Part shown: positions 11,438 through 49,048 of the stretch, piece after piece
Position numbering within the stretch: the first letter of the stretch is position 1
How the letters are laid out: the number at the start of each line of letters is the position of its first letter
Assembly: GCF_024346135.1 (NCBI RefSeq)
Contig: NZ_JAGQCJ010000005.1
Span: 62,001 to 126,000, forward strand
DNA length: 64,000 nt
Direction of reading: 5' to 3'
Origin: Cyanobium sp. CH-040
Lineage (GTDB): Bacteria; Cyanobacteriota; Cyanobacteriia; PCC-6307; Cyanobiaceae
Notes under the pieces: generated by a model
What the model saw: the letters and a program-made list of their open reading frames with translations, nothing else
Told to the model about the DNA's origin: nothing
Database searches by the model: none
Translations under genes and position numbers: made by a program

Positions 11438-12993
11438 GGCCAGCCCTGCTGCCAGCGGCTGCGGCGCTGGTACTCCGCCAGAACGGGCCGCCCCAGGCGG
11501 TTCGGCAGCACCGTCTCTCCCGGATCCGGCCGCAGGTCGCGCGGCAGCTCGAACAGCCGCTCGAGCTCCGTGGCATCCACCCAGCGTCCGGTGAAGGGCA
11601 GCGGTGCGAAGCCACGCTCCGGGCCGGAGCGCTGGGCCAGCACGAACCCCCACGGCCCGAAGCTGGGCACGCTGACGCTGTAGGGCCGGGTGCGCAGCCC
11701 CAGGTGCTCCAGGCTGGCCTGGATCGAGGCCAGCACCCGGGGCGTGAAGAAGGGGGTGGAGGCCTGGGTCACCAGCACGCCATCGCCGGCCAGGCGCTGG
11801 CGCAGGCGGCCGTAGAAGGCCACGCTGTAGAGCCGTGCCACGGCGGCTGTGGCGGGATCGGGGAAATCGGCGATCACCACGTCGTAGGGCCCATCCAGCT
11901 CGGCCACCCGGGCGAAGGCATCGCCCACGTGCACGCGCACGCGCGGATCGGCGAGGCTGCCTGCGTTGAGGCGGCGCAGCAGCGGGTGGCGGCGGGCCAG
12001 CTGCAGCATCGCCGGATCGAGCTCCAGCAGATCCACCTGCCGCACCGCCGGCCAGCGCAGCACCTCGCGCAGGGCCAGGCCGTCGCCGGCGCCGAGCAGC
12101 AGCACCCGCTGCGGCCGGCCGTGCAGGGCCATGGCCGGGTGCACCAGGGCCTCGTGGTAGCGGTATTCGTCCAGGCTGGAGAACTGCAGGCTGCCGTCCA
12201 GATAGAGGCGCAGGTCGCCGCGGCGCCGGGTGAGCACGATGCGCTGGTGGCGCGACTGCATCCGTCCCACCACCGGATCGGCGTAGAGGCTGTCCTCGAT
12301 GCGATCGCCCAGCGGACCCACCACCGCGCCGGCCAGCAGCGTCAGCGGCACGGCGGCGCCGAGGGGCCAGCGCCAGCGCCGCAGCTCCGGAAACCGCCAG
12401 GCCAGCAGGGCGCTGGTGACCAGGGGCACCACCGCCAGGGCGGCGGCGGTGGGCAGCAGCCCCAGCCAGGGCAGCAGCACCAGCGGGAAGAGCAGCGCTC
12501 CGGCCAGGGCGCCGAGGTAGTCGAGCGCCAGCACCCGCGCCAGGGCGGTGCGCAGCTGCTGCTGGTTCTCCAGCAGGCGGGTGATCAGGGGCAGTTCCAT
12601 CCCCCCCAGCACCCCAACCAGCAGCGTCAGCAGCACCACCGCCAGCCAGATCGGGCCGTCGACGGCGAACAGGGCGAACAGGGCCAGGGGGCCCAGCAGA
12701 CACAGTGGACTCAGCCCCAGTTCCACCCGCAGCAGCGCCCGCAGCAGCTGGCGCTGGGGGTCACCGGCGGTGGCCAGGAACTGGCTCAGCCAGGCCCCCA
12801 GCCCCATGGCCGCCAGGAAGGTGCCCACCACCACCCCCGTGGCCAGGGCGGCATCGCCCACCAGGTAGCTGGCCTGGGCCACCAGCAGCAGCTCCAGCAC
12901 CAGGCCCACACAGGAGGAGATGGCGGCGGTGATCAGCAGCAGCTGCACCTGGCCGCCGCTCAGGCGCCGCGACGACGGTGCGGATCGGCTCAC
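11434..12993 (-). CDS. Membrane-anchored spermidine-synthase-like aminopropyltransferase
   Basis: A 519-residue two-part protein. The first 225 or so residues are hydrophobic with about seven membrane segments (ITAAISSCVGLVLELLLVAQ onward). The rest is a spermine/spermidine-synthase Rossmann domain with YRYHEALVHPAMALHG, VLLLGAGDGLALREVL, LLELDPAM and YDVVIADFPDP. The ATPAT-type aspartate is present. It overlaps the upstream 74-residue gene by four bases. The substrate may not be a free polyamine, since membrane-fused members are linked to DUF4178/DUF350 genes of unknown pathway. Confidence 0.88.
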   Translation of the reverse strand: MSRSAPSSRRLSGGQVQLLLITAAISSCVGLVLELLLVAQASYLVGDAALATGVVVGTFLAAMGLGAWLSQFLATAGDPQRQLLRALLRVELGLSPLCLLGPLALFALFAVDGPIWLAVVLLTLLVGVLGGMELPLITRLLENQQQLRTALARVLALDYLGALAGALLFPLVLLPWLGLLPTAAALAVVPLVTSALLAWRFPELRRWRWPLGAAVPLTLLAGAVVGPLGDRIEDSLYADPVVGRMQSRHQRIVLTRRRGDLRLYLDGSLQFSSLDEYRYHEALVHPAMALHGRPQRVLLLGAGDGLALREVLRWPAVRQVDLLELDPAMLQLARRHPLLRRLNAGSLADPRVRVHVGDAFARVAELDGPYDVVIADFPDPATAAVARLYSVAFYGRLRQRLAGDGVLVTQASTPFFTPRVLASIQASLEHLGLRTRPYSVSVPSFGPWGFVLAQRSGPERGFAPLPFTGRWVDATELERLFELPRDLRPDPGETVLPNRLGRPVLAEYQRRSRWQQGWP

Positions 12994-35838: not shown

Positions 35839-36564
35839 GTGATCGAGACGATTGCGGGGCTGCCGGAAGGGACCCTGGGCTTCACCTTCAGCGGGCGGAT
35901 CACCGGCGGGGACTACGACAGCGTGCTGGTGCCGGCCATCGACCGCGCGATCGAGATGCACGATCGCATCAAGGTCCTGATGGTCTTCGGCGAGGGGTTC
36001 GAGGGCTACGACCTCGCCGCCGTCTGGGACGACGCCCGCCTGGGCCTGCGCCACTGGCGCGGCTTCGAGCGCATCGCGGTCATCAGCGACGTGCCCTGGC
36101 TGCGCACGGCGGTGCGGGCCATGGGTGTGGCGCTGCCCTGTCCGGTGCGTCTGTTCGCCGGCGGCGACGAGCAGGAAGCCCGCCGCTGGCTTGCCGAATC
36201 GCTGGGCGCGATCCACCTGGAGGAACGGGATGGGGTGGTCCGCGTGCGGCTGATCGGCCAGCTGGAGCCCAGCGCCTACGACGGGGTGGAGGAGGAGATC
36301 GCCCGGCTGTTCGCCAGCTCCCAGCCGGTGCGCCTGCTGGTGGACCTGCGGGAGTTCGACGGCTGGAGCGGCCTGGCGGCTCTGGGCGACCATCTCTCGC
36401 TGGTGCGCGAGCACCGCCGCACGCCACGGCGCGTGGCGGTGCTGGGCGATCAGGCCTGGGAGAAACTGGCGTCACGGCTGCTCTCCCGCTTCACCGAGGC
36501 GGAGACACGCTTCTTCGACGGCGCCCATGCCGAGCAGGCGGAGCTCTGGGCCCGCGGCGGCTGA
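35839..36564 (+). CDS. Tandem SpoIIAA/STAS-like protein
   Basis: A 241-residue soluble protein made of two copies of the SpoIIAA-like fold. Copy one runs about 1-120 (FTFSGRITGGDYDSVLVPAI, VLMVFGEGFEGYDL) and copy two about 125-241 (VRVRLIGQLEPSAYDGVEEEI, LLVDLREFDGWSG). It starts with GTG after GGGAGACAAGCC. Proteins of this family are often lipid- or stress-linked in bacteria. Nothing shows its partner. It precedes the guanidine riboswitch but ends before it. Confidence 0.75.
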   Translation: MIETIAGLPEGTLGFTFSGRITGGDYDSVLVPAIDRAIEMHDRIKVLMVFGEGFEGYDLAAVWDDARLGLRHWRGFERIAVISDVPWLRTAVRAMGVALPCPVRLFAGGDEQEARRWLAESLGAIHLEERDGVVRVRLIGQLEPSAYDGVEEEIARLFASSQPVRLLVDLREFDGWSGLAALGDHLSLVREHRRTPRRVAVLGDQAWEKLASRLLSRFTEAETRFFDGAHAEQAELWARGG

Positions 36565-36642
36565 GGCCGGTCGATTCCAGCGGGGCTGGTAGCCGTCGCC
36601 ACAACGCACCTGCCGGTGTGGGGTGAATCTGGCTCAGCGGAA

Positions 36643-36780
36643 GCAGCTTCTAGGGTTCCGATCCCCACCCTGCGTGCCGTGCGCGACTTTGCGTGCCGTG
36701 CGCCTCCGAGGGATGCCTGGTCCGAGAGAAGCTCACCGGGTTCGCCCGGTTGCACGGAGGGACAAAAGCCCGGGAGACCG
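36643..36780 (+). ncRNA. Guanidine-I (ykkC class) riboswitch
   Basis: The three near-invariant blocks of the guanidine-I aptamer occur in order: CTAGGGTTCCG at 36650-36660, CTGGTCCGAGAG at 36717-36728 and GCACGGAGGGACAAAAGCC beginning 36752, ending CGGGAGA. Between the last two sits a perfect helix ACCGGG-TTCG-CCCGGT (36735-36750). The motif lies 20 bases before the start of the guanidine hydrolase gene. Free guanidine is therefore expected to turn the operon on. A variable hairpin region at 36661-36716 contains a 14-base direct repeat. Confidence 0.95.
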
Positions 36781-36798
36781 CTTCAGTCCACTCCGTGC

Positions 36799-38007
36799 AT
36801 GCCCATGAGCGATCCCACCGGCGCGACCACCGGCCCTGAAGGCGCGTTCGAACCTCCGCGCGGCCGTCAGGGCGCCGAGGCCCTCGAGAAGGAGGCCCGC
36901 CTGCCCCTCACCGGCTGGCAGCAGGAGGTGGACCAGGGCCACCGCTGGGGCCTGGAGGCCGCCGAGAGCATCGTCGACCGGCGCATCTCCACCTTCTCCC
37001 GCGGCGAACTGCCCCACTTCGCGGGCATCAACACGTTCATGAAGGCGCCCTACATCGAGGACGTGAACCGGGTGGGGGAATTCGACGTGGCGGTGGTGGG
37101 GGTCCCCCACGATTCCGGCACCACCTACCGGCCCGGCACCCGCTTCGGTCCCCAGGGCATCCGGCGGATCTCGGCCCTCTACACCCCCTACAACTACGAG
37201 ATGGGGGTGGATCTGCGCGAGCAGATCAAGCTCTGCGACGTGGGCGACATCTTCACGATTCCGGCCAACAACGAGAAGAGCTTCGACCAGATCTCCAAGG
37301 GCATCGCCCACATCTTCGCCAGCGGTGCCTTTCCGATCATCCTCGGCGGCGACCACTCGATCGGCTTCCCCACCGTGCGCGGCGTCTGCCGGCATCTGGG
37401 CGACAAGAAGGTGGGCATCATCCACTTCGACCGCCACGTCGACACCCAGGAGATCGACCTCGACGAGCGCATGCACACCTGTCCGTGGTTCCACGCCACG
37501 AACATGGCCAACGCCCCCGCCAGGAACCTGGTGCAGCTGGGCATCGGTGGCTGGCAGGTGCCGCGCGAAGGCGTGAAGGTGTGCCGCGAGCGGGGCACCA
37601 ACGTGCTCACCGTCACCGACATCTGCGACATGGGCCTGGAGGCGGCGGCGCAGTACGCCATCGAGCGCGCCACCGACGGCACCGACTGCGTGTACATCTC
37701 CTTCGACATCGACTGCATCGACGCCGGCTTCGTGCCCGGCACCGGCTGGCCCGAACCCGGCGGCCTGCTGCCGCGCGAGGCCCTCAAGCTGCTGGAGCTG
37801 ATCGTGCGCAACGTGCCGGTGTGCGGCCTGGAGGTAGTGGAGGTGTCGCCGCCCTACGACATCAGCGACATGACCTCACTGATGGCCACCCGGGTGATCT
37901 GCGACACCATGGCCCACCTGGTGGTGAGCGGCCAGCTGCCGCGGAAGGAGAAGCCCAGCTGGATCAGCGACGTCTGCAACATGAACGTCGATCAGACGTG
38001 GAGATGA
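36799..38007 (+). CDS. gdmH: Nickel-dependent guanidine hydrolase (arginase/agmatinase superfamily)
   Basis: Hydrolyses guanidine to urea and ammonium in the cytosol. The 402-residue ureohydrolase has His186 (GGDHS), Asp211, His213 and Asp215 (HFDRHVD), and Asp303 and Asp305 (FDIDCIDAG) as metal ligands. It has an N-terminal extension of about 90 residues beyond agmatinase, as known for Synechocystis Sll1077. The guanidine-I riboswitch and HypA/HypB-like genes on either side argue strongly for GdmH, not agmatinase. ATG at 36799 is used (36805 also possible); a frame from 36616 would run through the riboswitch. Confidence 0.93.
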   Translation: MPMSDPTGATTGPEGAFEPPRGRQGAEALEKEARLPLTGWQQEVDQGHRWGLEAAESIVDRRISTFSRGELPHFAGINTFMKAPYIEDVNRVGEFDVAVVGVPHDSGTTYRPGTRFGPQGIRRISALYTPYNYEMGVDLREQIKLCDVGDIFTIPANNEKSFDQISKGIAHIFASGAFPIILGGDHSIGFPTVRGVCRHLGDKKVGIIHFDRHVDTQEIDLDERMHTCPWFHATNMANAPARNLVQLGIGGWQVPREGVKVCRERGTNVLTVTDICDMGLEAAAQYAIERATDGTDCVYISFDIDCIDAGFVPGTGWPEPGGLLPREALKLLELIVRNVPVCGLEVVEVSPPYDISDMTSLMATRVICDTMAHLVVSGQLPRKEKPSWISDVCNMNVDQTWR

Positions 38008-38011
38008 GGCC

Positions 38012-38404
38012 ATGCATGAAGTCGACATGACCAAATGCCTGCTCCTCTCCATGAACGCCTGGAAGCAGCAGCACGCCCCGCACACGCCCCAGGTGGAGCG
38101 GGTGCATCTGCAGGTGGGCGCCTTCACCTGCGTGGAACCCGACCAGTTGGTCACCACCTGGCGGGTTGCCGTGCAGGGCAGCTGGCTCGATGGCGCCGAC
38201 CTGGCGATCGAAACCGTGCCCCTGGTGGGGCGCTGTTTGATCTGCAACAGCACCTACAGCCCCGATCCCCGGCAGGCCTACCGCTCCCCCTGCTGCGATC
38301 ACCCGATGGAGGAGATCGTCAGTGGCCGCGAGCTGCGCATCCGCTCCGTCGATTACCTGCTTCGCGATCCAACCCGCCCTTCACGAACCGCCGCTGCGCG
38401 CTGA
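38012..38404 (+). CDS. ghaA: HypA-like nickel chaperone for guanidine hydrolase
   Basis: A 130-residue HypA homologue. The N-terminal nickel-binding motif MHEVDMT is intact, and the zinc region has RCLICNSTY and a second cysteine pair in SPCCDHP. It sits four bases after gdmH and directly before a HypB-like GTPase, with no hydrogenase genes in the window. By the Synechocystis precedent the pair loads nickel into GdmH (GhaA/GhaB). Confidence 0.9.
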
Positions 38405-38409
38405 CCGCC

Positions 38410-39117
38410 ATGCACATGCCCCTGGAAGACACCCTCGGCCTCAACCTGCTGGCTGCCAACCAGCACCAGGCCGAGCACAACCGCGAGCACTTCGACGCCT
38501 GGCGGCTGCTCTGCCTGAACGTGATGAGCAGCCCCGGCGCCGGCAAGACCTCGCTGCTGGAACGCAGCCTCGCCGCCCTGGCCGGCGAGTACGCCATGGC
38601 GGTGCTGGAGGGCGACATGACCACCCAGCTGGACGCCGAGCGCCTGGAGGCGGTGGGGGTGCCGGTGGTGCCGATCACCACCGGCCGCAGCTGCCACCTG
38701 GATGCGGCGATGGTGAGCGGTGGCCTCAAGCTGCTGCGCCAGCGCCTCGATCCCGCCGCTCTCGACATCCTCTGGGTGGAGAACGTGGGCAACCTGGTGT
38801 GCCCGGCAGAGTTCGAGGTGGGCGAGCACCGCAAGGTGGCGCTGCTGAGCGTCACCGAGGGCGACGACAAGCCGCTCAAGTACCCGGTGATGTTCCGCGA
38901 AGCCCACTGCGTGCTGATCACCAAGACCGATCTGCTGCCCTACCTGCCGGTGCAGCTGGAGCGCATCGAGGCCCACATCCGCCAGGTGAACCCCCGCTGC
39001 GCAGTGATCCCGGTGTCCGCCACCAGCGGCGAGGGGATCGAGGCCTGGCACCAGTGGCTGGGGGCGCAGCTCGCGGCCATCGCGCCGGCGGCCCCCGCCG
39101 CCCTGGTGAGCGCATGA
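38410..39117 (+). CDS. ghaB: HypB-like nickel-insertion GTPase for guanidine hydrolase
   Basis: A 235-residue SIMIBI GTPase. Motifs are the P-loop [12 protein letters not shown] (about residues 40-51), the switch region [13 protein letters not shown], the metal-region [18 protein letters not shown] with the conserved Cys, and the base-specificity motif TKTD. It lacks the His-rich nickel-storage tail of some HypB proteins. It follows ghaA after five bases. Nickel delivery to GdmH is inferred from operon context and family knowledge. Confidence 0.9.
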
Positions 39118-39262
39118 CGGACGCCTCCAGGCCACGCCAGCGCCAGCCGGAACCCTTCTGAGCCATCGCCGGCCGCCCCCCGATCCAGCGGCACCTCGCC
39201 GCAGCGGAGCTCCTGGGTCAGGAACTCCCCGCCCATCCCCCACCACCGCTCGATTGCCAGCC

Positions 39263-40276
39263 ATGCGTCTTCCCTTCCTGCGCCGCCCCAGCACCGGCCG
39301 TCGCCGCCTGCTCGCCACCCTGCTGCTGGTGGGCCTCGGGGCCACCACCCTCAGCGCCTGCGGCGGCGGCACGCCGGAAGGCGCGGTGCGCATCGGCTAC
39401 AGCGCCTGGCCGGGCTGGATCCCCTGGAAGGTCACCGAGGAGAAGGGGCTGTTCGGCGTGCCGGTGACCCTGCAGTGGTTCGACGGCTACCTCGATTCGA
39501 TCAACGCCCTCAACGCCGGCCAGCTTGACTGCAACAGCCAGACCCTCAACGACACGATCAGTTCGATCGCCGGCGGCGCCGATCTGCAGGTGGTGCTCAC
39601 CAACGACAACTCCACCGGCAACGACCAGATCATCGTGGCCGAGGGGATCAGGACGGTGGCCGACCTGAAGGGCAAGCGGGTGGCGGCCGAGGAGGGCACG
39701 GTGGATCACTACCTGCTGCTGCTGGGCCTGGAGAAGGCGGGCCTGAGCGCCGACGACATCACCTTCGTGCCGCTGGAGACCGGGGCCGCCGCCGCCGCCT
39801 TCGTGGCCGGCCAGGTGGATGCCGTGGGCGTGTTCGCCCCCTTCACCACCCAGGCCCTGAAGCGCCCGGGCAGCTCCACCCTGTTCACCTCCGCCGACTT
39901 CCCGGGCGCCATCAGCGATCACCTGGTGTGCCGCCGCGAGTTCGTGGAGGCCAACCCCGAGAAGGTGCAGAAGATCGTCGACGCCTGGTTCGCCACCCTG
40001 GCCGAGATGCAGGCCAACCCGGAGGCCTCGCTGGCCATCCTCAGCGCCCGGGCCGGCGTGAGCGAGGAGGAGTACAGGGCCTACGAGGCCGGCACCACCC
40101 TGTTCAGCCTCGAGGACAACCTCAAGGCGCTGGCGCCCGGCAGCACCATGGCATCGCTGCCCTACGCCGCCGGCCAGATCAGCGCTTTCCTGCAGCAGGT
40201 GGGCCTGGCGCAGAGCCCGCCGAAGCTGGAGGGCCTGTTCGAGGGCCGCTTCCTGAAAGCGGTCAAGGCGAACTGA
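39263..40276 (+). CDS. ABC transporter substrate-binding lipoprotein, guanidine-linked
   Basis: Periplasmic binding protein of the SsuA/NMT1 type, 337 residues. It has an RRRLLATLLLVGLGATTLSAC signal and lipobox with the lipidation Cys. RIGYSAWPGWIPWKVTEEKG and DGYLDSINALNAGQLDC form the ligand cleft. The same gene order (gdmH-ghaA-ghaB-SBP-permease-ATPase) is known from Synechocystis sll1077-sll1082, where the transporter imports guanidine. ATG at 39263 is preferred to an in-frame TTG at 39254. Confidence 0.88.
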   Translation: MRLPFLRRPSTGRRRLLATLLLVGLGATTLSACGGGTPEGAVRIGYSAWPGWIPWKVTEEKGLFGVPVTLQWFDGYLDSINALNAGQLDCNSQTLNDTISSIAGGADLQVVLTNDNSTGNDQIIVAEGIRTVADLKGKRVAAEEGTVDHYLLLLGLEKAGLSADDITFVPLETGAAAAAFVAGQVDAVGVFAPFTTQALKRPGSSTLFTSADFPGAISDHLVCRREFVEANPEKVQKIVDAWFATLAEMQANPEASLAILSARAGVSEEEYRAYEAGTTLFSLEDNLKALAPGSTMASLPYAAGQISAFLQQVGLAQSPPKLEGLFEGRFLKAVKAN

Positions 40277-40297
40277 GCGGGGGGCGGGAGAGGGGCC

Positions 40298-41065
40298 ATG
40301 GCACGCGCGAAGGACCTGCTGCACCACCCCTGGGTCCTGGGACTCACCGGGGTGCTGGTGGTGCTGCTGATCTGGACGCTGGTCACGAGCCTGAGGCTGG
40401 TGGACCCCCTGTTCCTGCCCAGCCCGGCGGCTGTACTGGCAGCGGGCCGGGCCCAGGCCGGCCAGGGGCTGCTCTGGGCCGATCTGCTGGCCAGCGTGGG
40501 GCGGGTGCTGGGCGGCTTCGCCCTCTCGGCGGCGGTCGCCCTGCCGCTGGGCATCGCCATGGGCACCAGCACGGTGATCAACCGGCTGCTGGAGCCGCTG
40601 ATGGGCCTGATCCGCTACATGCCGGCCCCGGCCTTCATTCCCCTGCTGATCATCTACTTCGGCCTGGGGGAGCTGCCGAAGATTCTGCTGATCTTCATCG
40701 GCACCCTGTTCTTCAACACGCTGATGATCATGGATGCGGTGAAGTTCGTGCCGCGCGAACTGGTGGAGACGGCCCTCACCCTCGGCGGGCGCACCTCCCA
40801 GGTGCTGCTTCGGGTGATCACGCCCTGCATCGCGCCCCAGGTGATCGACGCCTACCGGATCAACATGGCCGCCGCCTGGAATCTGGTGATCGTGGCCGAG
40901 CTGGTGGCCGCCAACGAAGGGCTGGGCAAGCGGATCAGCCTGGCCCAGCGGTTTCTGCGCACCGACGAGATCTTCCTCGGCCTGATCGTGATCGGCCTGA
41001 TCGGCCTGGTGATCGATCTGGGCTTCCGGCTGGTGATGCGCCGGGCCTGCGCCTGGGCCAACTGA
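40298..41065 (+). CDS. ABC transporter permease, guanidine-linked
   Basis: A 255-residue inner-membrane permease of the SsuC/TauC type with six predicted helices. The ATPase-coupling EAA loop is seen as ETALTLGGRTSQVLLRVITP near residue 160. It lies 21 bases after the binding protein and 28 bases before the ATPase gene. Together they make a guanidine importer by analogy to Synechocystis. Confidence 0.9.
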   Translation: MARAKDLLHHPWVLGLTGVLVVLLIWTLVTSLRLVDPLFLPSPAAVLAAGRAQAGQGLLWADLLASVGRVLGGFALSAAVALPLGIAMGTSTVINRLLEPLMGLIRYMPAPAFIPLLIIYFGLGELPKILLIFIGTLFFNTLMIMDAVKFVPRELVETALTLGGRTSQVLLRVITPCIAPQVIDAYRINMAAAWNLVIVAELVAANEGLGKRISLAQRFLRTDEIFLGLIVIGLIGLVIDLGFRLVMRRACAWAN

Positions 41066-41093
41066 ACGGCACTCTCACCGCACGACCTTCCCC

Positions 41094-41870
41094 ATGCAGC
41101 TGCGCGTCGACCAGGTGGAGAAGAGCTTCGGCAGCGGCCGCAGCCGCAAGCTCGTGCTCGACCGGATCAGCTTCACCGTGAACACCGGCGAGTTCGTGGC
41201 GCTGGTGGGCAGCTCGGGGTCGGGGAAATCGACGATGATGCGCCTGGTGGCCGGTCTGGACCGCCCCACCGCCGGCGTGATCAGCATTGACGGCACCCCC
41301 GTGCGCGGGCCGGGATCGGACCGGGGGATGGTGTTTCAGAAGTACAGCCTCTACCCCTGGCTCACGGCCGCCCAGAACGTGGCCTTCGGCATGGAGCTGC
41401 AGGGGCTGAACCGGCGCGAGATCCGCGAGCGCACCAGCTACTTCCTGGAGGTGGTGGGGCTGGCGGACGCGGCCCGGCGGCTGCCGCGGGAACTCTCCGG
41501 CGGCATGCAGCAGCGGGTGGCGATCGCCCGCGCCCTGGCCGCCCAGCCCCGGGTGCTGCTGCTCGATGAACCCTTCGGCGCGCTGGATCTGCAGATCCGC
41601 GAGTCGATGCAGGAGTTCATGCACGATCTCTGGCAGCGCACCGGCCTCACAGCCCTGCTGATCACCCACGACCTGGAGGAGGCGCTGCTGCTGGCCCGGG
41701 AGGTGCACATCCTGGCGCCCAATCCCGGCCGCATCGTGCGTTCGGTGGCCGTCGACCTCGACAGGGGCGACCTGCGCCACCTGCGCCTGTCGCCGCAGTT
41801 CCTGGAGCTGCGGGAAGAGCTCGCCAGCTGCCTGCGCGGCATGGAGCCGGCGCTCACCCCGGCGCCGTGA
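41094..41870 (+). CDS. ABC transporter ATPase, guanidine-linked
   Basis: A 258-residue ATPase of the SsuB/TauB type. Walker A GSSGSGKST is near residue 42, Q-loop VFQKYSLYPWL, signature LSGGMQQRVAIARAL, Walker B VLLLDEPFGALD, and the switch His in LLITHDLEEAL. It is the last gene of the guanidine operon. Its final 17 bases overlap the 3-prime end of a small convergent gene. Confidence 0.9.
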   Translation: MQLRVDQVEKSFGSGRSRKLVLDRISFTVNTGEFVALVGSSGSGKSTMMRLVAGLDRPTAGVISIDGTPVRGPGSDRGMVFQKYSLYPWLTAAQNVAFGMELQGLNRREIRERTSYFLEVVGLADAARRLPRELSGGMQQRVAIARALAAQPRVLLLDEPFGALDLQIRESMQEFMHDLWQRTGLTALLITHDLEEALLLAREVHILAPNPGRIVRSVAVDLDRGDLRHLRLSPQFLELREELASCLRGMEPALTPAP

Positions 41871-42036
41871 ACTCCTCGGGCCGGATGCCCAGGTACACCG
41901 CCTCCTGGAACAGGGCCTGCTTGGCGGCGGCATCCTGACGCCGCTCGGCGTCGGCGTAACGGCTGCGCAGGGACTGAACCAGCGCCGGCCGGCGGGGATC
42001 GGCGCTGGTCTCGGAGGGGAGCTCGGACTGGCTCAT
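41854..42036 (-). CDS. Small hypothetical protein convergent to the guanidine operon
   Basis: A 60-residue charged, soluble protein, MSQSELPSETSADPRRPALV at the start and AVYLGIRPEEFTAPG at the end, with a helix rich in Ala, Arg and Gln (SRYADAERRQDAAAKQALFQ). No family was recognised. The ATG at 42036 gives the compact form; an upstream frame would add 37 non-descript residues. Its end overlaps the ABC ATPase gene on the other strand. Confidence 0.5.
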   Translation of the reverse strand: MSQSELPSETSADPRRPALVQSLRSRYADAERRQDAAAKQALFQEAVYLGIRPEEFTAPG

Positions 42037-42231
42037 GAACAACGACGACGCCATCGACAGGGGGAGAGGGGGATGCGCTGGGGGACCCCCCGCGAACCAG
42101 GGACCGGAATCAGACGAATCCAGCCTAGGTAGCGCACCAGTGACCATGCCTACCGCAGCGGCGCCGGCGGGGCTGCTGGGATGGCGCCCAGGGCCCCGCC
42201 TGCCCCCTCCCGCCCTCGCCGATCCCGACCC

Positions 42232-44251: not shown

Positions 44252-45583
44252 ATGACCGATCTCGCCAGCCAGGCCCGCGAGCTGCAGCTGAGGTTCCTGC
44301 TGATCTCCTTCACCGACCTGTTCGGCATCCAGCGGGCCAAGCTCGTGCCCGCTTCGGCGATTGCGGCCATGGCCCGCGACGGGGCCGGGTTCGCCGGCTT
44401 CGCCGCCTGGCTGGATCTGTCTCCCGCCGACGGCGACGTGATGGCGATCCCCGATCCCGCCAGCCTCACTCCCCTGCCCTGGCAGCCGGAGGTGGGCTGG
44501 GTGGCGGCCGAGCTGGTGCTGGCCGGCACACCGATGGCCCAGTGTCCGCGCCGCCTGCTGCGAACCCAGCTGGAGCGGGCGGCGTCCCTGGGCTACGAGC
44601 TGCGCAGCGGCGTGGAGGCCGAGTTCTTCCTGCTGGGGGCCGACGGCGGCGGCATCGCCGATCCGGCCGACCACCAGGAGAAACCCTGCTACGACCAGCT
44701 GGCGCTGATGCGCCGTTACGGCCTGATCGGGCCGCTGCTGGAGGCGATGGAGCAGCTGGGCTGGGGGCCGTACCAGGCCGACCACGAAGACGCCAACGGC
44801 CAGTTCGAGGTGAACTGGACCTTCGCCCACGCCCTCACCACCGCCGACCGCCACGCCTTCTTCAAGGTGATGGTGAAGACGCTGGCGGAACAGCAGGGCC
44901 TCAAGGCCAGCTTCATGGCCAAGCCCTTCGCCGAACGCACCGGCAACGGCTGCCACACCCATCTCTCCCTCTGGGGCACGCCGGGCAACGCCAGCGCCGG
45001 CACCAGCGGCGCCCAGACCAACCTGTTCCACGATCCCGCCGGCGAGCTGGGGCTCTCGGTGTTGGCCTACCAGTTCCTGGCGGGCCTGCTGGAGCACGCC
45101 CCGGCCCTGTGCGCCCTCACCAACCCCACGGTGAACAGCTACCGGCGCCTGGCGGCGCCGCCCACCACCTCCGGCGCCACCTGGAGCCCGGCGGGCATCA
45201 GCTACAGCGGCAACAACCGCACCCACATGCTGCGCATCCCCGACGACCAGCGGCTGGAGCTGCGGTTGCCGGACGGTTCGGCCCATCCCTACCTGCTCCA
45301 GGCCGGCATCCTGGCGGCGGGCCTCGACGGCATCGAACGCCAGCTGCAACCCGGCCCGCGCCGGGACAACGACAACTACGCCGCCCCGCTCGCGCCCGAC
45401 ATCTGCCCGCGGCTGCCGGCCGATCTGGGTGAAGCGCTGGATGCCTTCGACGGCGACAGCCGCCTGCGGGCGGCCCTGGGGGAGGAGTTCTGCCAGGCCT
45501 ACGGCCGCCCGCGTCGCCGCCAATGGCTGCGCGACCGGGGCGACATCAGCGACGCGGAGCGGCTGGCGTGTCTGGATTGTTGA
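44252..45583 (+). CDS. glnT: GlnT-type (type III) glutamine synthetase family ligase
   Basis: Makes a gamma-glutamyl amide from glutamate, ATP and an amine, normally ammonium. The 443-residue protein has the GS metal glutamates in SGVEAEFFLL and DANGQFEVNW, the GNGCHTHLSLW segment replacing the usual GSGMHVHQS, NPTVNSYRRL, and SYSGNNRTHMLRIP. It is additional to whatever main GlnA exists elsewhere. Nearness to the guanidine operon suggests it may capture ammonium released there; gamma-glutamylmethylamide synthesis is an alternative. Confidence 0.85.
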   Translation: MTDLASQARELQLRFLLISFTDLFGIQRAKLVPASAIAAMARDGAGFAGFAAWLDLSPADGDVMAIPDPASLTPLPWQPEVGWVAAELVLAGTPMAQCPRRLLRTQLERAASLGYELRSGVEAEFFLLGADGGGIADPADHQEKPCYDQLALMRRYGLIGPLLEAMEQLGWGPYQADHEDANGQFEVNWTFAHALTTADRHAFFKVMVKTLAEQQGLKASFMAKPFAERTGNGCHTHLSLWGTPGNASAGTSGAQTNLFHDPAGELGLSVLAYQFLAGLLEHAPALCALTNPTVNSYRRLAAPPTTSGATWSPAGISYSGNNRTHMLRIPDDQRLELRLPDGSAHPYLLQAGILAAGLDGIERQLQPGPRRDNDNYAAPLAPDICPRLPADLGEALDAFDGDSRLRAALGEEFCQAYGRPRRRQWLRDRGDISDAERLACLDC

Positions 45584-45636
45584 ACGGGAGCCTGCAAGCG
45601 TGGCAACGCTGAACCGTAGCCGTGGCGGAGGTTGGG

Positions 45637-46608
45637 ATGACCCAGCAAACCAAGTCTCCCGGCCTGATCCAGCGCTACCGGGAAAAGCTCCAGACCCGCC
45701 ACTACGCCCGGCGCACAGTGAAGACCTACGAGCTATGGCTGCGGCGCTTTCTGCGGTTTCACGGCATGCGGCATCCCCGCGACATGGGCAGCGCCGAGGT
45801 GAACGCCTTCCTCACCCATCTGGCAGTGGACCTGAAAGTGAGCGCTTCCACCCAGAACCAGGCATTGGCGTCGCTGCTGTTTCTCTACCGCGAGCTGCTG
45901 GAACGGGACCTGGAGCTGGAGGGTGTAGTGCGGGCGCGGACACGACGACGGCTCCCAGTGGTGCTCAGCGAGGCCGAAGTCCAAACGGTGCGTGATCGCC
46001 TGGAGGGGCAGCCAGCGCTGGTGGTGGGGCTCCTGTATGGCAGCGGTCTGCGCCTGATGGAGGCCCTGCGGCTGCGCGTGAAGGATCTGCATTTCGAGCG
46101 GCGTGAGCTGACCGTACGGGATGGAAAAGGCGGCAAGGACAGACTCACCCTGCTTCCCCAGAGCCTGGTAGCAGAGTTGCAGCGACATCTGCTGGGTGTG
46201 CGGCGCCTGCATCAAGCGGATCTGACTGCAGGGTGGGGCCGGGTGCTGATGCCCAATGCCCTCGCCAGGAAATATCCAAATGCCGATCGAGAATGGGCCT
46301 GGCAGTGGGTGTTTCCACAGGAACATCGCTAGCACGATGGAGCATCAGGGATCCAGGGACGCCACCATCTGGATCCGAGCATCGTGCAGAAAGCCGTGAA
46401 GCGGGCGGTGACTGAGGCTGGGGTGACCAAGTCAGCCAGCTGCCATACCTTTCGCCATTCGTTTGCCACCCACCTACTGGAACGCGGCCAGGACATCCGC
46501 ACGATCCAGGAACTTCTGGGCCATCAGGATGTAAGCACCACCATGATCTACACCCATGTGCTGAACCGCGGGCCGCTGGGGGTCCGCAGCCCTGCGGACC
46601 TTGTGTAA
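45637..46608 (+). pseudogene. intI: Integron integrase IntI, interrupted by one in-frame TAG
   Basis: Tyrosine recombinase for cassette capture. The N-terminal part has the SAM-like domain (ARRTVKTYELWLRRFLRFHG) and catalytic Arg in GSGLRLMEALRLR and Lys in DGKGGKDR. The IntI-specific patch LARKYPNADREWAWQWVFPQ follows, then TAG at 46330-46332. Translation in the same frame continues with [20 protein letters not shown], the [12 protein letters not shown] box and catalytic Tyr in [13 protein letters not shown]-to-TAG change at a usually-Trp position is the simplest explanation. GGAGG lies before the ATG at 45637. Confidence 0.9.
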
Positions 46609-46774: not shown

Positions 46775-46786
46775 GACTTGTTAGGC
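46775..46786 (+). other. Integron insertion core site (attI or attC R-prime half)
   Basis: GACTTGTTAGGC ends with the canonical GTTRRRY core (GTTAGGC at 46780-46786), 13 bases before the KAP ATG. It is the exact reverse complement of GCCTAACAAGTC at the truncated attC (49946). That makes it more like the right half of an attC than a classical attI. It marks the left border of the first cassette. Confidence 0.7.
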
Positions 46787-46799
46787 AGATCGGAAGGCT

Positions 46800-48959
46800 A
46801 TGGGCTGGATACGACGCTGGTTTCGACGAGAAAGCACCGAGACGGTGGATGACGTCTCCGGGATGGAGCGCATGCCTCAGATCGCAGGCAACGCAGCCAA
46901 GGTCACCGCAGACAATCCAATTACCAGGCCGGAAGACGACGCGCTTGGGCGCACTAAACTCGCACAATCATTCGCGGAGCAGGTTCTCGCCCTTGATTCA
47001 ACCGAAGGCGTTGTTGTGGGAGTCCTAGGGCCTTGGGGTTCCGGCAAAACATCCTTCGTCAATCTTGCTCACAAACGACTGAGGCAGGCAGGCGTTACGG
47101 TACTTGAATTCAACCCTTGGATGTTTAGCGGTGCGGATCAGCTTGTTCAGGCTTTCTTCGTAGAACTCTCTGCTCAGCTAAAGCTGCAACGAGATCTCGC
47201 CGAGATCGGCAAGCTTGTCGAGGACTATGGTGAAACCTTCTCCGGCCTTGCGTGGCTACCGCTTGTAGGCCCGTGGATCGAGCGCGGTCGAGCAGCAAGC
47301 AAGATTCTGGCTAAGCTACTGCAACGGAAGAAAGAGGGCATTCGGGGTCGCCAGTCAAAGGTCCGCGATGCTCTTTCTAAGCTTCCGAACCCAATCGTAG
47401 TGGTCCTAGATGACATCGACCGGCTAACCACGCCTGAAATCAGGGATGTATTCAAGTTGGTACGGCTTACGGCCAACTTCCCCAATGTTATCTATTTGTT
47501 GGCGTTCGATCGCATTAGGGTCGAGCAGGCCCTCGCCGAACAAGGAATACCAGGGCGCGACTACCTTGAGAAGATTTTACAGATAGGCATCGACCTGCCA
47601 GCCGTGCCTGCAGATGTACTGAACTCGCAGATCTTCGCAGCAATCGATAAAGCACTCGGCAGCATTCAGAACCCAGGGAATTTCGATCCGGAAGTGTGGC
47701 CGGATGTGTTTATTGAGGTCGTTCGACCTCTTATCCGAAACATGCGGGACGTTCGGCGATATTCGGCCGCAATTCATGGGACAGTGCTCGACTTGGGCGG
47801 ACAGGTTGCTCTTGTTGATGTATTAGCGCTTGAGGCAATTCGCGTATTTCTCCCTGACGTATTCCGCAATCTGCACTCTACCGTTGACGGACTCACAAAT
47901 ACCTCGGATGGCTATGGCCACCGGGGAGACCTACCCCACCTTAAGCAACAGATCGAGGTGCTAATCAAGGCCGCCGGCGACCGTGTAGAGGTCGTGCGAG
48001 ACTTAGTTCAACGACTGTTTCCCGCGGGCCAGCGGCACTTGGGCGGCACTCACTTCGGCGGCGATTGGAAGAACCGGTGGCTTCGGGAACGACGAGTGGC
48101 GCATGAAGATGTTTTGCGCTTCTATCTAGAGCGGGTCATGGGCGAGCGACTTCAGTCCTTTGCGGAAGCTGAGAACGCATGGACACGCATGACTGATCGG
48201 ACTGCCTTCGAAACCTATCTCCACTCCCTGCCAGTTGAACGACTGCAGGACGTTATTTCATCGCTCGAAGTATATGAAGACCAGTTCGGCCCCGAGCATG
48301 TAGTTCCGGCTACGATCGTGCTCCTCAATCTTCTACCAAGCCTTCCCGAGCGCCAGCGCGGGATGTTCGATCTAGATACACGATTGGTTGTTGGGAGAGT
48401 TGTTTATCGCCTCGTGCGATCACTGAAGGACCCTCAAGCGGTGGAGGCAGCGGTTCGCGAGATACTTCCTCACGTTGCGTCTTTGTCATCAAGGCTTGAG
48501 CTAATTACGGACGTCGGATATAGAGAGGGCGCAGGGCACAAACTTGTGTCCGAGACAGCTGCGAAAAGCCTGGAAAAGGAGTGGCGTGATGCAGTTCGCG
48601 CTAGCGACGCGGATACTCTGGCGCGGGAAACGGATCTTCTCCGAATTCTCATTATTACCAAGAGGGGTGCTGGGCTTGAAGAGCCTGCGTTCACGGTTCC
48701 TGGCTCGGTGGCAGTCACACAGGCGCTCCTGAAAGCGGCCCGGAGCGAAGTACGAAGTCAATCAATGGGCAGCCGGGTAGTTCGCCGCAAGCCACGGCTC
48801 GCCTGGGATGCATTGATCGAAGTATGCGGTAACGAGATTGCGCTTCGCCAGCGTATCGAAGCACTTAAGGCATCCAGGCCGGAGAACATCGGCGACTTGC
48901 TTGAACTCGCGGACAAATACCTCTCGGGATGGCGACCTAAGGACTTCGGCGATGACTAG
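46800..48959 (+). CDS. KAP-family P-loop NTPase, integron cassette gene
   Basis: A 719-residue intact protein with Walker A GPWGSGKT (77-84), the KAP-typical FNPWMFSGADQL just after, and Walker B VVVLDDIDRLT (near 201-210). A long helical C-terminal half follows. The two membrane segments inserted in some KAP members are weak here (SGLAWLPLVGPWIE). KAP NTPases occur in candidate antiphage systems. It occupies one cassette between the core site at 46780 and a full attC at 48975, and its lower GC marks foreign origin. A defence role is inferred. Confidence 0.85.
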   Translation: MGWIRRWFRRESTETVDDVSGMERMPQIAGNAAKVTADNPITRPEDDALGRTKLAQSFAEQVLALDSTEGVVVGVLGPWGSGKTSFVNLAHKRLRQAGVTVLEFNPWMFSGADQLVQAFFVELSAQLKLQRDLAEIGKLVEDYGETFSGLAWLPLVGPWIERGRAASKILAKLLQRKKEGIRGRQSKVRDALSKLPNPIVVVLDDIDRLTTPEIRDVFKLVRLTANFPNVIYLLAFDRIRVEQALAEQGIPGRDYLEKILQIGIDLPAVPADVLNSQIFAAIDKALGSIQNPGNFDPEVWPDVFIEVVRPLIRNMRDVRRYSAAIHGTVLDLGGQVALVDVLALEAIRVFLPDVFRNLHSTVDGLTNTSDGYGHRGDLPHLKQQIEVLIKAAGDRVEVVRDLVQRLFPAGQRHLGGTHFGGDWKNRWLRERRVAHEDVLRFYLERVMGERLQSFAEAENAWTRMTDRTAFETYLHSLPVERLQDVISSLEVYEDQFGPEHVVPATIVLLNLLPSLPERQRGMFDLDTRLVVGRVVYRLVRSLKDPQAVEAAVREILPHVASLSSRLELITDVGYREGAGHKLVSETAAKSLEKEWRDAVRASDADTLARETDLLRILIITKRGAGLEEPAFTVPGSVAVTQALLKAARSEVRSQSMGSRVVRRKPRLAWDALIEVCGNEIALRQRIEALKASRPENIGDLLELADKYLSGWRPKDFGDD

Positions 48960-48974
48960 GTTCAGGACGGAGTT

Positions 48975-49037
48975 GCCTAACAACCGCATGCAGCCGACGC
49001 GCAGAAGGCAGCGCGCGGCAGATGCCGGACGTTAGGC
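48975..49037 (+). repeat. Complete attC recombination site
   Basis: 63 bases bounded by GCCTAAC (48975-48981) and GTTAGGC (49031-49037), exact complements. The inner arms GCCGACGCGC (48993) and GCGCGCGGC (49011) pair around an 8-base loop, leaving one unpaired A, the type of extrahelical base by which integrases recognise the bottom strand. It follows the KAP stop by 15 bases. Confidence 0.9.
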
Positions 49038-49048
49038 CCACATAAAGC

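Follow-up and report, generated by a model that had tools for sequence, protein, structure and literature searches.

A predicted guanidine-use operon resembling that of Synechocystis in a Cyanobium-like genome, with the apparent scar of a lost glutamine-synthetase-like gene

What would a picocyanobacterium do with guanidine, and how complete is its equipment for doing so? A locus on the + strand of Cyanobium sp. CH-040 (contig NZ_JAGQCJ010000005.1) raises this question. At 36639-41870 of a 64-kb window (by which we mean the whole stretch of 64,000 nucleotides that we analysed), a guanidine riboswitch is followed by contiguous genes for the putative guanidine hydrolase GdmH, HypA, HypB, a lipoprotein binding protein, a permease, and an ATPase. 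The window has a GC content of 71%, and the source genome (2.9 Mb in 27 contigs) is 100% complete; judged by GdmH, the nearest named relatives of the host are Cyanobium and Synechococcus. With a probability that we put at roughly 90%, the locus is a reduced form of the Synechocystis-type operon, induced by guanidine and used for scavenging nitrogen, in a Cyanobium-like host.

An earlier sequence-only reading had named the riboswitch and six gene families on one strand, and profile searches match every one of these families. That reading began the operon at 36643; the six genes are indeed contiguous on the + strand, but the aptamer actually starts at 36639. The features are listed here, where ABC stands for ATP-binding cassette, ORF for open reading frame, and L003 for a close relative, the Cyanobium CSSed165cm metagenome-assembled genome:

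36639..36778, + strand: guanidine-I (ykkC) riboswitch aptamer with an enlarged variable hairpin (RF00442 by cmscan, 81.2 bits)
36671..36703, + strand: apparent tandem duplication in the variable hairpin of the aptamer (14-base repeat TGCGTGCCGTGCGC at 36671 and 36690, 19-base period)
36751..36799, + strand: proposed expression platform, a predicted pairing of TGCACGGAG (36751-36759) with CTCCGTGCA (36791-36799), which lies shortly ahead of the start codon
36805..38007, + strand: predicted GdmH-type Ni guanidine hydrolase (769 bits to 7esr/7oi1; PF00491 Arginase, 260.5 bits; specificity threonine and tryptophan present)
38012..38404, + strand: HypA-type nickel chaperone, GhaA-like (PF01155, 86.7 bits)
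38410..39117, + strand: HypB-type GTPase, GhaB-like (TIGR00073, 275.5 bits; CobW/HypB PF02492, 74.1 bits)
39114..39161, + strand: putative scar of a deleted glutamine-synthetase-like gene, 15 codons (blastn against L003, translation of the scar ORF, and alignment of the last codons and stop)
39263..40276, + strand: lipoprotein substrate-binding protein, SsuA-type, of an ABC importer (TIGR01728, 227.1 bits; lipobox LSAC)
40298..41065, + strand: ABC permease (PF00528, BPD_transp_1, 85.1 bits)
41094..41870, + strand: ABC ATPase (PF00005, ABC_tran, 118.1 bits)

The identity of the hydrolase is central to this interpretation. When compared to the PDB, it scored 769 bits against 7esr and 7oi1 and 577 bits against 9fek, which are crystallised guanidinases. 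(7esr and 7oi1 bear the old PDB name "agmatinase 2" but are guanidinases.) The next non-guanidinase scored 170 bits and, among the best 60 of 70 PDB matches, none of the others exceeded this; the agmatinase 7lol scored 127 bits. When set against agmatinases, as the sequence-only reading had proposed, the hydrolase is closest to the guanidinases (769 versus 170 bits). The ureohydrolase metal-ligand motifs GGDH, FDRHVD, and DIDCID are present, as that reading had indicated. In the enzyme from Synechocystis, Thr97 and Trp305 are reported to set the specificity for guanidine (PMC11410670); the equivalent positions in the PDB alignment are T109 and W317 of the window's GdmH, given an inferred offset of 2 between chain and native numbering. 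GdmH is also partnered in the operon by hypA/hypB-like genes for nickel loaders. By sequence, the hydrolase is of the Synechocystis guanidinase type and is predicted to be nickel-dependent. These searches were run with the frame open from 36799. We think that the start at 36805 (ATGAGC) is more likely, because the ATG at 36799 is absent from the close relatives L002 and L003.

Automatic annotation was expected to call these genes agmatinase, hydrogenase maturation, and sulfonate transport. This holds for GdmH (180.9 bits for the agmatinase model TIGR01230, cut-off 174.3), for HypB (275.5 bits for TIGR00073, cut-off 121.2), and for the binding protein (227.1 bits for the sulfonate-binding model TIGR01728, cut-off 163.5), but the score for the HypA model TIGR00100 was 83, under its cut-off of 88.1. 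Sll1077 from Synechocystis has likewise been annotated as an agmatinase (PMC8390497).

The riboswitch was tested with the covariance model RF00442, as had been suggested from the sequence, and scored well above threshold: 81.2 bits against a gathering score of 63 (E = 6.7e-13), over the full length of the model (1-107 of 107). This is the sole Rfam match at gathering score in the window and the sole match to RF00442 in the genome. The minimum-energy fold of the leader pairs TGCACGGAG of the aptamer with CTCCGTGCA beside the start codon (energy z-score -2.58), and a scan of the interval between the aptamer and the hydrolase gene found no terminator-like site. From this pairing and the lack of a terminator, we infer that the riboswitch would control translation. 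A leader complement with a shuffle p-value of 0.05 or below was found in 25 of 62 leaders; this test covered 81 sequences, of which 62 have the aptamer core, and it compared the longest complement in each leader to simple shuffles, among sequences that are related to each other.

The aptamer's hairpin contains two exact copies of TGCGTGCCGTGCGC, which are predicted to fold into a lengthened stem. We rejected the idea that TGCGTGCCGTGCGC is a dispersed genomic repeat: its first 13 bases have exact matches at these two sites of the genome only. We read it as a local tandem duplication. In L002, the spacing between the conserved aptamer blocks is the same as in the window (104 bases). Separately, four relatives (L039, L046, L065, and L068, which are RCC307-like Synechococcus and Prochlorococcus) have guanidine operons with no RF00442 match at gathering score; these operons are perhaps regulated in another way.

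Putting these parts together, guanidine would bind the leader aptamer and thereby free the start region of the messenger, the ABC importer would take up guanidinium, and GdmH would convert guanidine to urea and ammonium, with nickel from the HypA/HypB pair, as judged from the characterised homologue. A chromosomal urease would complete the pathway: the alpha subunit is on contig C3 (966.9 bits). In Synechocystis, the homologous enzyme does degrade guanidine (PMC8390497). The genome also encodes a second HypA, on contig C1 and 2.6 kb from the large subunit of a NiFe-hydrogenase, so the operon's HypA is not the only one.

Some points weigh against this account. Guanidine is the importer's presumed substrate because of operon membership and the Synechocystis case, the mode of switching is a fold prediction, and 37 of the 62 leaders fell short of p = 0.05 in the pairing test. 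The hydrolase could conceivably belong to a polyamine operon instead, as an agmatinase or as a ureohydrolase of some other guanidino acid. Its score above the cut-off for TIGR01230 would fit, but its scores against the guanidinases are far higher than against 7lol or the other ureohydrolases listed, a guanidine riboswitch precedes the gene, a separate second ureohydrolase is encoded on contig C2, and there is a tryptophan at the specificity position (whose role is described in PMC11410670). We consider this reading to be extremely improbable. We also rejected a viral origin of GdmH, as a scan of viral_contigs found no relatives. Another alternative is that the operon mainly detoxifies guanidine rather than supplying nitrogen. 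Guanidine is toxic to a cyanobacterium that lacks the enzyme (PMC8390497), and no protein in the genome matches PF00893, the family of SMR/Gdx-type exporters, which could leave hydrolysis as the chief protection. On the other hand, a dedicated importer with its own binding protein lies inside the operon, and the genome encodes urease. Detoxification as the main role seems unlikely to us, and we prefer nitrogen scavenging.

The operon had been described as complete. Relative to the Synechocystis gene set it is, but relative to many relatives it is not: a ligase gene appears to have been deleted, and a gene for a Rieske oxygenase is absent. The comparison with L003 is the most direct. L003 has the same core genes and downstream neighbours as the window, and its GdmH is 96% identical, but it has an intact gene of the GmaS/GlnT type between hypB and the binding protein. 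In a blastn comparison, the alignment of the window to L003 runs over 36637-39129 and resumes at 39139, and L003 has 1338 extra bases in between, which hold nearly all of this gene for a 458-amino-acid protein. At the junction, the window has a short ORF (39114-39161) whose ATG overlaps the stop codon of hypB and which ends with TGA after 15 codons. The ATGA overlap at the end of hypB is the same in the window, L003, and L002, and the last codons and stop of the short ORF align with L003 at 11673-11695, the site of the L003 gene's stop. L002, the nearest row to the window in the tree, keeps the ligase gene, cut by the end of the contig. Because the match to L003 flanks the gap, the short ORF has a matching start and stop, and L002 keeps the gene, we conclude that a ligase gene of the GmaS/GlnT type was probably deleted from the window's operon, leaving a scar. 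The ancestor would have carried this gene between hypB and the importer, and the 15 codons would be what is left of it; the Rieske oxygenase gene is absent as well.

Two details complicate this picture. In a global alignment, the 15 codons are spread out along the missing gene, which leaves the inner breakpoints inexact, and the contig of L002 ends inside the ligase gene, so that its Rieske region falls outside the contig. Could the window's lineage never have had the gene, with the relatives gaining it and no deletion? In 11 rows from the far side of the tree, including marine Synechococcus and Prochlorococcus, no ligase gene separates hypB from the binding protein, and the changes on the tree cannot separate gain from loss. 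Yet the gene is present in the nearest row (L002) and in a member of the same clade (L003), the window retains the start that overlaps hypB's stop as well as the stop codon and the bases preceding it, the junctions in two other genomes that lack the gene (L127 and L128) are different, and L007 keeps a 71-residue remnant of the ligase. Given the scar and the close genomes, we rejected ancestral absence, which we consider very unlikely, in favour of a deletion.

The tree was built from five operon proteins and has 74 rows, 4 of which have no ligase state. Of the 70 scored rows, 43 carry the ligase, with a minimum of 11 changes. The window forms a clade with L002, L003, L127, and L128 (support of 100 by the Shimodaira-Hasegawa-like approximate likelihood ratio test, SH-aLRT), and the pairing of the window with L002 has a support of 94. 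Within this clade, only L002 and L003 have the ligase. When read by eye, the junctions in the window, L127, and L128 all differ from each other, and therefore point to separate deletions of the ligase gene. We also rejected relocation of the gene to elsewhere in the genome: of the four Gln-synt_C proteins, the best (at 44252-45583 of the window) is 43% identical to the ligase and the remaining ones reach 27-32% identity, so none of them is the missing gene. As a separate case, in L131 (G192) hypB runs into the permease, with both the binding protein and the ligase missing and the Rieske gene retained; this looks like decay of the operon and could be an assembly artefact.

How widespread is the ligase? 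RF00442 scored over its cut-off in 92 of the 300 family genomes, a sample whose strict filters may lose some genomes with the riboswitch. At 64% identity or above, and among the matches listed, at least 58 of the 300 have the ligase (partial in G262 and G189, cut by the contig end in G203, and in two pieces in G035). Of these 58, 56 also carry the riboswitch, while 36 genomes have the riboswitch only, 2 have the ligase only, and 206 have neither (Fisher's exact test, 1.9e-33, not corrected for relatedness). In 55 of the 56, the ligase lies 2320-2728 bases downstream of the riboswitch, on the same contig and strand; in G189, the main piece is on a separate contig. Within the genus (the window's genome and ten others, all with the riboswitch), 6 of 11 genomes have the ligase gene (truncated at the end of a contig in one of them), and it is missing from 5, including the window's.

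Outside the family, we found the ligase once. Among 386 genomes drawn from across the phylum, 6 matched at E = 1e-130, and one of these (G460, a 5.7-Mb genome) belongs to another family of the class. Its ligase is 64% identical, and it has its own RF00442 match (74 bits). The order of its operon is GdmH, HypA, ligase, HypB, binding protein, permease, and ATPase, with no match to the Rieske queries. Because this operon holds the ligase gene at a different position, we think that the ligase is probably a part of guanidine metabolism rather than a passenger by chance.

What might the ligase do? The protein from L003 scores 566 bits for TIGR03105 (type III glutamate-ammonia ligase, cut-off 469.6), and its nearest solved relatives are the glutamate-methylamine ligases 9qur (2.8e-111) and 7cql (2.4e-99). 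In GmaS, Asp177 and Glu186 are catalytic (PMC7948447). Both have equivalents in all 43 operon copies examined, but two residues of the GmaS pocket, Gln175 and Asn188, are replaced by Ser and Asp in all 43. (One copy, in L034, has an internal stop.) The ligase thus appears to be GmaS-like in mechanism with a pocket of its own, and ammonium, an alkylamine, or guanidine are candidate substrates. We dropped an Asp50-like residue as a marker for ammonium versus amine enzymes, as the column shifts with the aligner (HMMER or MAFFT).

In many relatives, the operon is followed by a Rieske gene: 48 of the 65 tree rows scored have it after the ATPase gene, and the protein was found in 70 of the 300 family genomes. 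We found no match in the window's genome at E = 1e-30 and none in the window at 1e-3. Three examples have both Rieske and catalytic domains (PF00355 and PF00848), and one of them has carnitine monooxygenase as its nearest relative, with a further match to the demethylase 4qup, which suggests that the protein is an oxygenase acting on N-alkyl compounds. The 92 genomes with the riboswitch include 46 with both the ligase and the Rieske gene, 10 with the ligase only (among them G203, where the contig breaks off within the ligase gene, and G035, with its match in two pieces), 16 with the Rieske gene only, and 20 with neither (Fisher's exact test, p = 0.00025, not corrected for relatedness). The tree offers few independent pairs (sign test, median p = 0.5), and L133 has the ligase but no match to the Rieske queries, so we make no claim that losing the Rieske gene leads to losing the ligase.

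A more tentative idea, which we regard as possible but doubtful, is that an undescribed step is encoded in the guanidine operons of Cyanobium-like genomes and in those of one or more other families: the GmaS-type ligase, with its own invariant pocket (Ser175 and Asp188), would join glutamate either to ammonium or to some amine that guanidine compounds release. In many Cyanobium-like operons, the Rieske oxygenase, of the carnitine/stachydrine type, would handle N-alkylguanidines, and the window's lineage would have lost both and gone back to plain guanidine.

Another gene is often found near Cyanobium-type guanidine operons: a xylose-isomerase-like TIM-barrel gene (PF01261; L005:15417-16280 and counterparts), which many of them have either in convergent orientation or a short way upstream. 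It was not found in L124, L127, L128, L130, or the window, all of which also lack the Rieske gene. The window's operon has a SpoIIAA-like gene (35839-36564) as its upstream neighbour. Downstream is a small ORF on the opposite strand (41854-42147), which overlaps the end of the ATPase gene and occurs in many relatives.

The Gln-synt_C protein at 44252-45583 is a second type III glutamate-ammonia ligase (TIGR03105, 575.9 bits; 7cql, 1.5e-160), and it keeps Gln175, Asp177, and Asn188 as in GmaS. It is beside genes for a MetX-like hydrolase and a fatty-acid-desaturase-like protein, and this trio is also found in L034, L124, L127, and L128. The window also has an integron-integrase gene (45622-46332; TIGR02249, 286.6 bits, cut-off 265) with an early stop, past which integrase-like sequence continues to about 46600. 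A stretch with lower GC at third codon positions (GC3) adjoins this gene, with attC-like sites, identified by eye, near 46775, 48976-49040, and 49946. Within this stretch, 46800-48959 encodes a KAP-family P-loop protein (211 bits to PADLOC's PifA), and could be a defence cassette in a chromosomal integron of the cyanobacterial kind.

How does the window's operon compare to known systems? Relative to the sll1077-sll1082 operon of Synechocystis PCC 6803, whose exact gene order we presume, what is particular to the window is the high-GC Cyanobium lineage, the putative scar of an extra gene, and the enlarged aptamer hairpin. The Synechocystis operon has the same class of riboswitch, the hydrolase, two nickel loaders, a binding protein, a permease, and an ATPase (PMC8390497, PMC12186494, PMC12930504). 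Wang et al. (2021) described the Synechocystis gene and its operon partners, whose expression was raised in guanidine-producing strains (PMC8390497), and a 2025 review describes the operon with its importer and nickel loaders (PMC12186494).

Closer to the window, Dore et al. (2023) reported a cluster of speB2, hypA, hypB, and TauABC-like genes in Synechococcus and Prochlorococcus, with a ykkC riboswitch upstream in Synechococcus; for Prochlorococcus, the text leaves the riboswitch unstated (PMC10119275). The window shares the riboswitch, speB2 (the guanidinase), hypA, hypB, and three TauABC-like ABC genes with these clusters (Pro-eCAG_004 / Syn-eCAG_001). A Rieske gene is downstream in most, but not all, of the Synechococcus/Cyanobium clusters (PMC10119275), whereas the window has none. 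The relatives in our comparison share the core gene order of the window's operon. The sequence-only reading saw novelty in finding the whole set contiguous in a picocyanobacterium, but this was already published. Given that report and the riboswitch in 92 of 300 family genomes, the arrangement is ordinary for the group.

The main text of Dore et al. mentions no glutamine synthetase (PMC10119275; figures and supplements are outside this statement). More broadly, in the literature on guanidine use by cyanobacteria, we found no paper that names the ligase in guanidine operons; this coverage excludes several key guanidine papers, including a 2025 PNAS study, and supplements. The nearest solved relatives of the missing gene's product are GmaS proteins (7CQL and 9QUR), with the shared catalytic residues and altered pocket described above.

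These results add a further Cyanobium-like genome whose genes should allow it to use guanidine as a nitrogen source, and they correct the names that databases are likely to give its genes (agmatinase, hydrogenase maturation, and sulfonate transport). The comparison with its relatives also reveals a ligase of the GmaS/GlnT type that is resident in guanidine operons, which we did not meet in the literature covered. Apparently clean natural deletions in close genomes make the role of this ligase testable by comparing strains.

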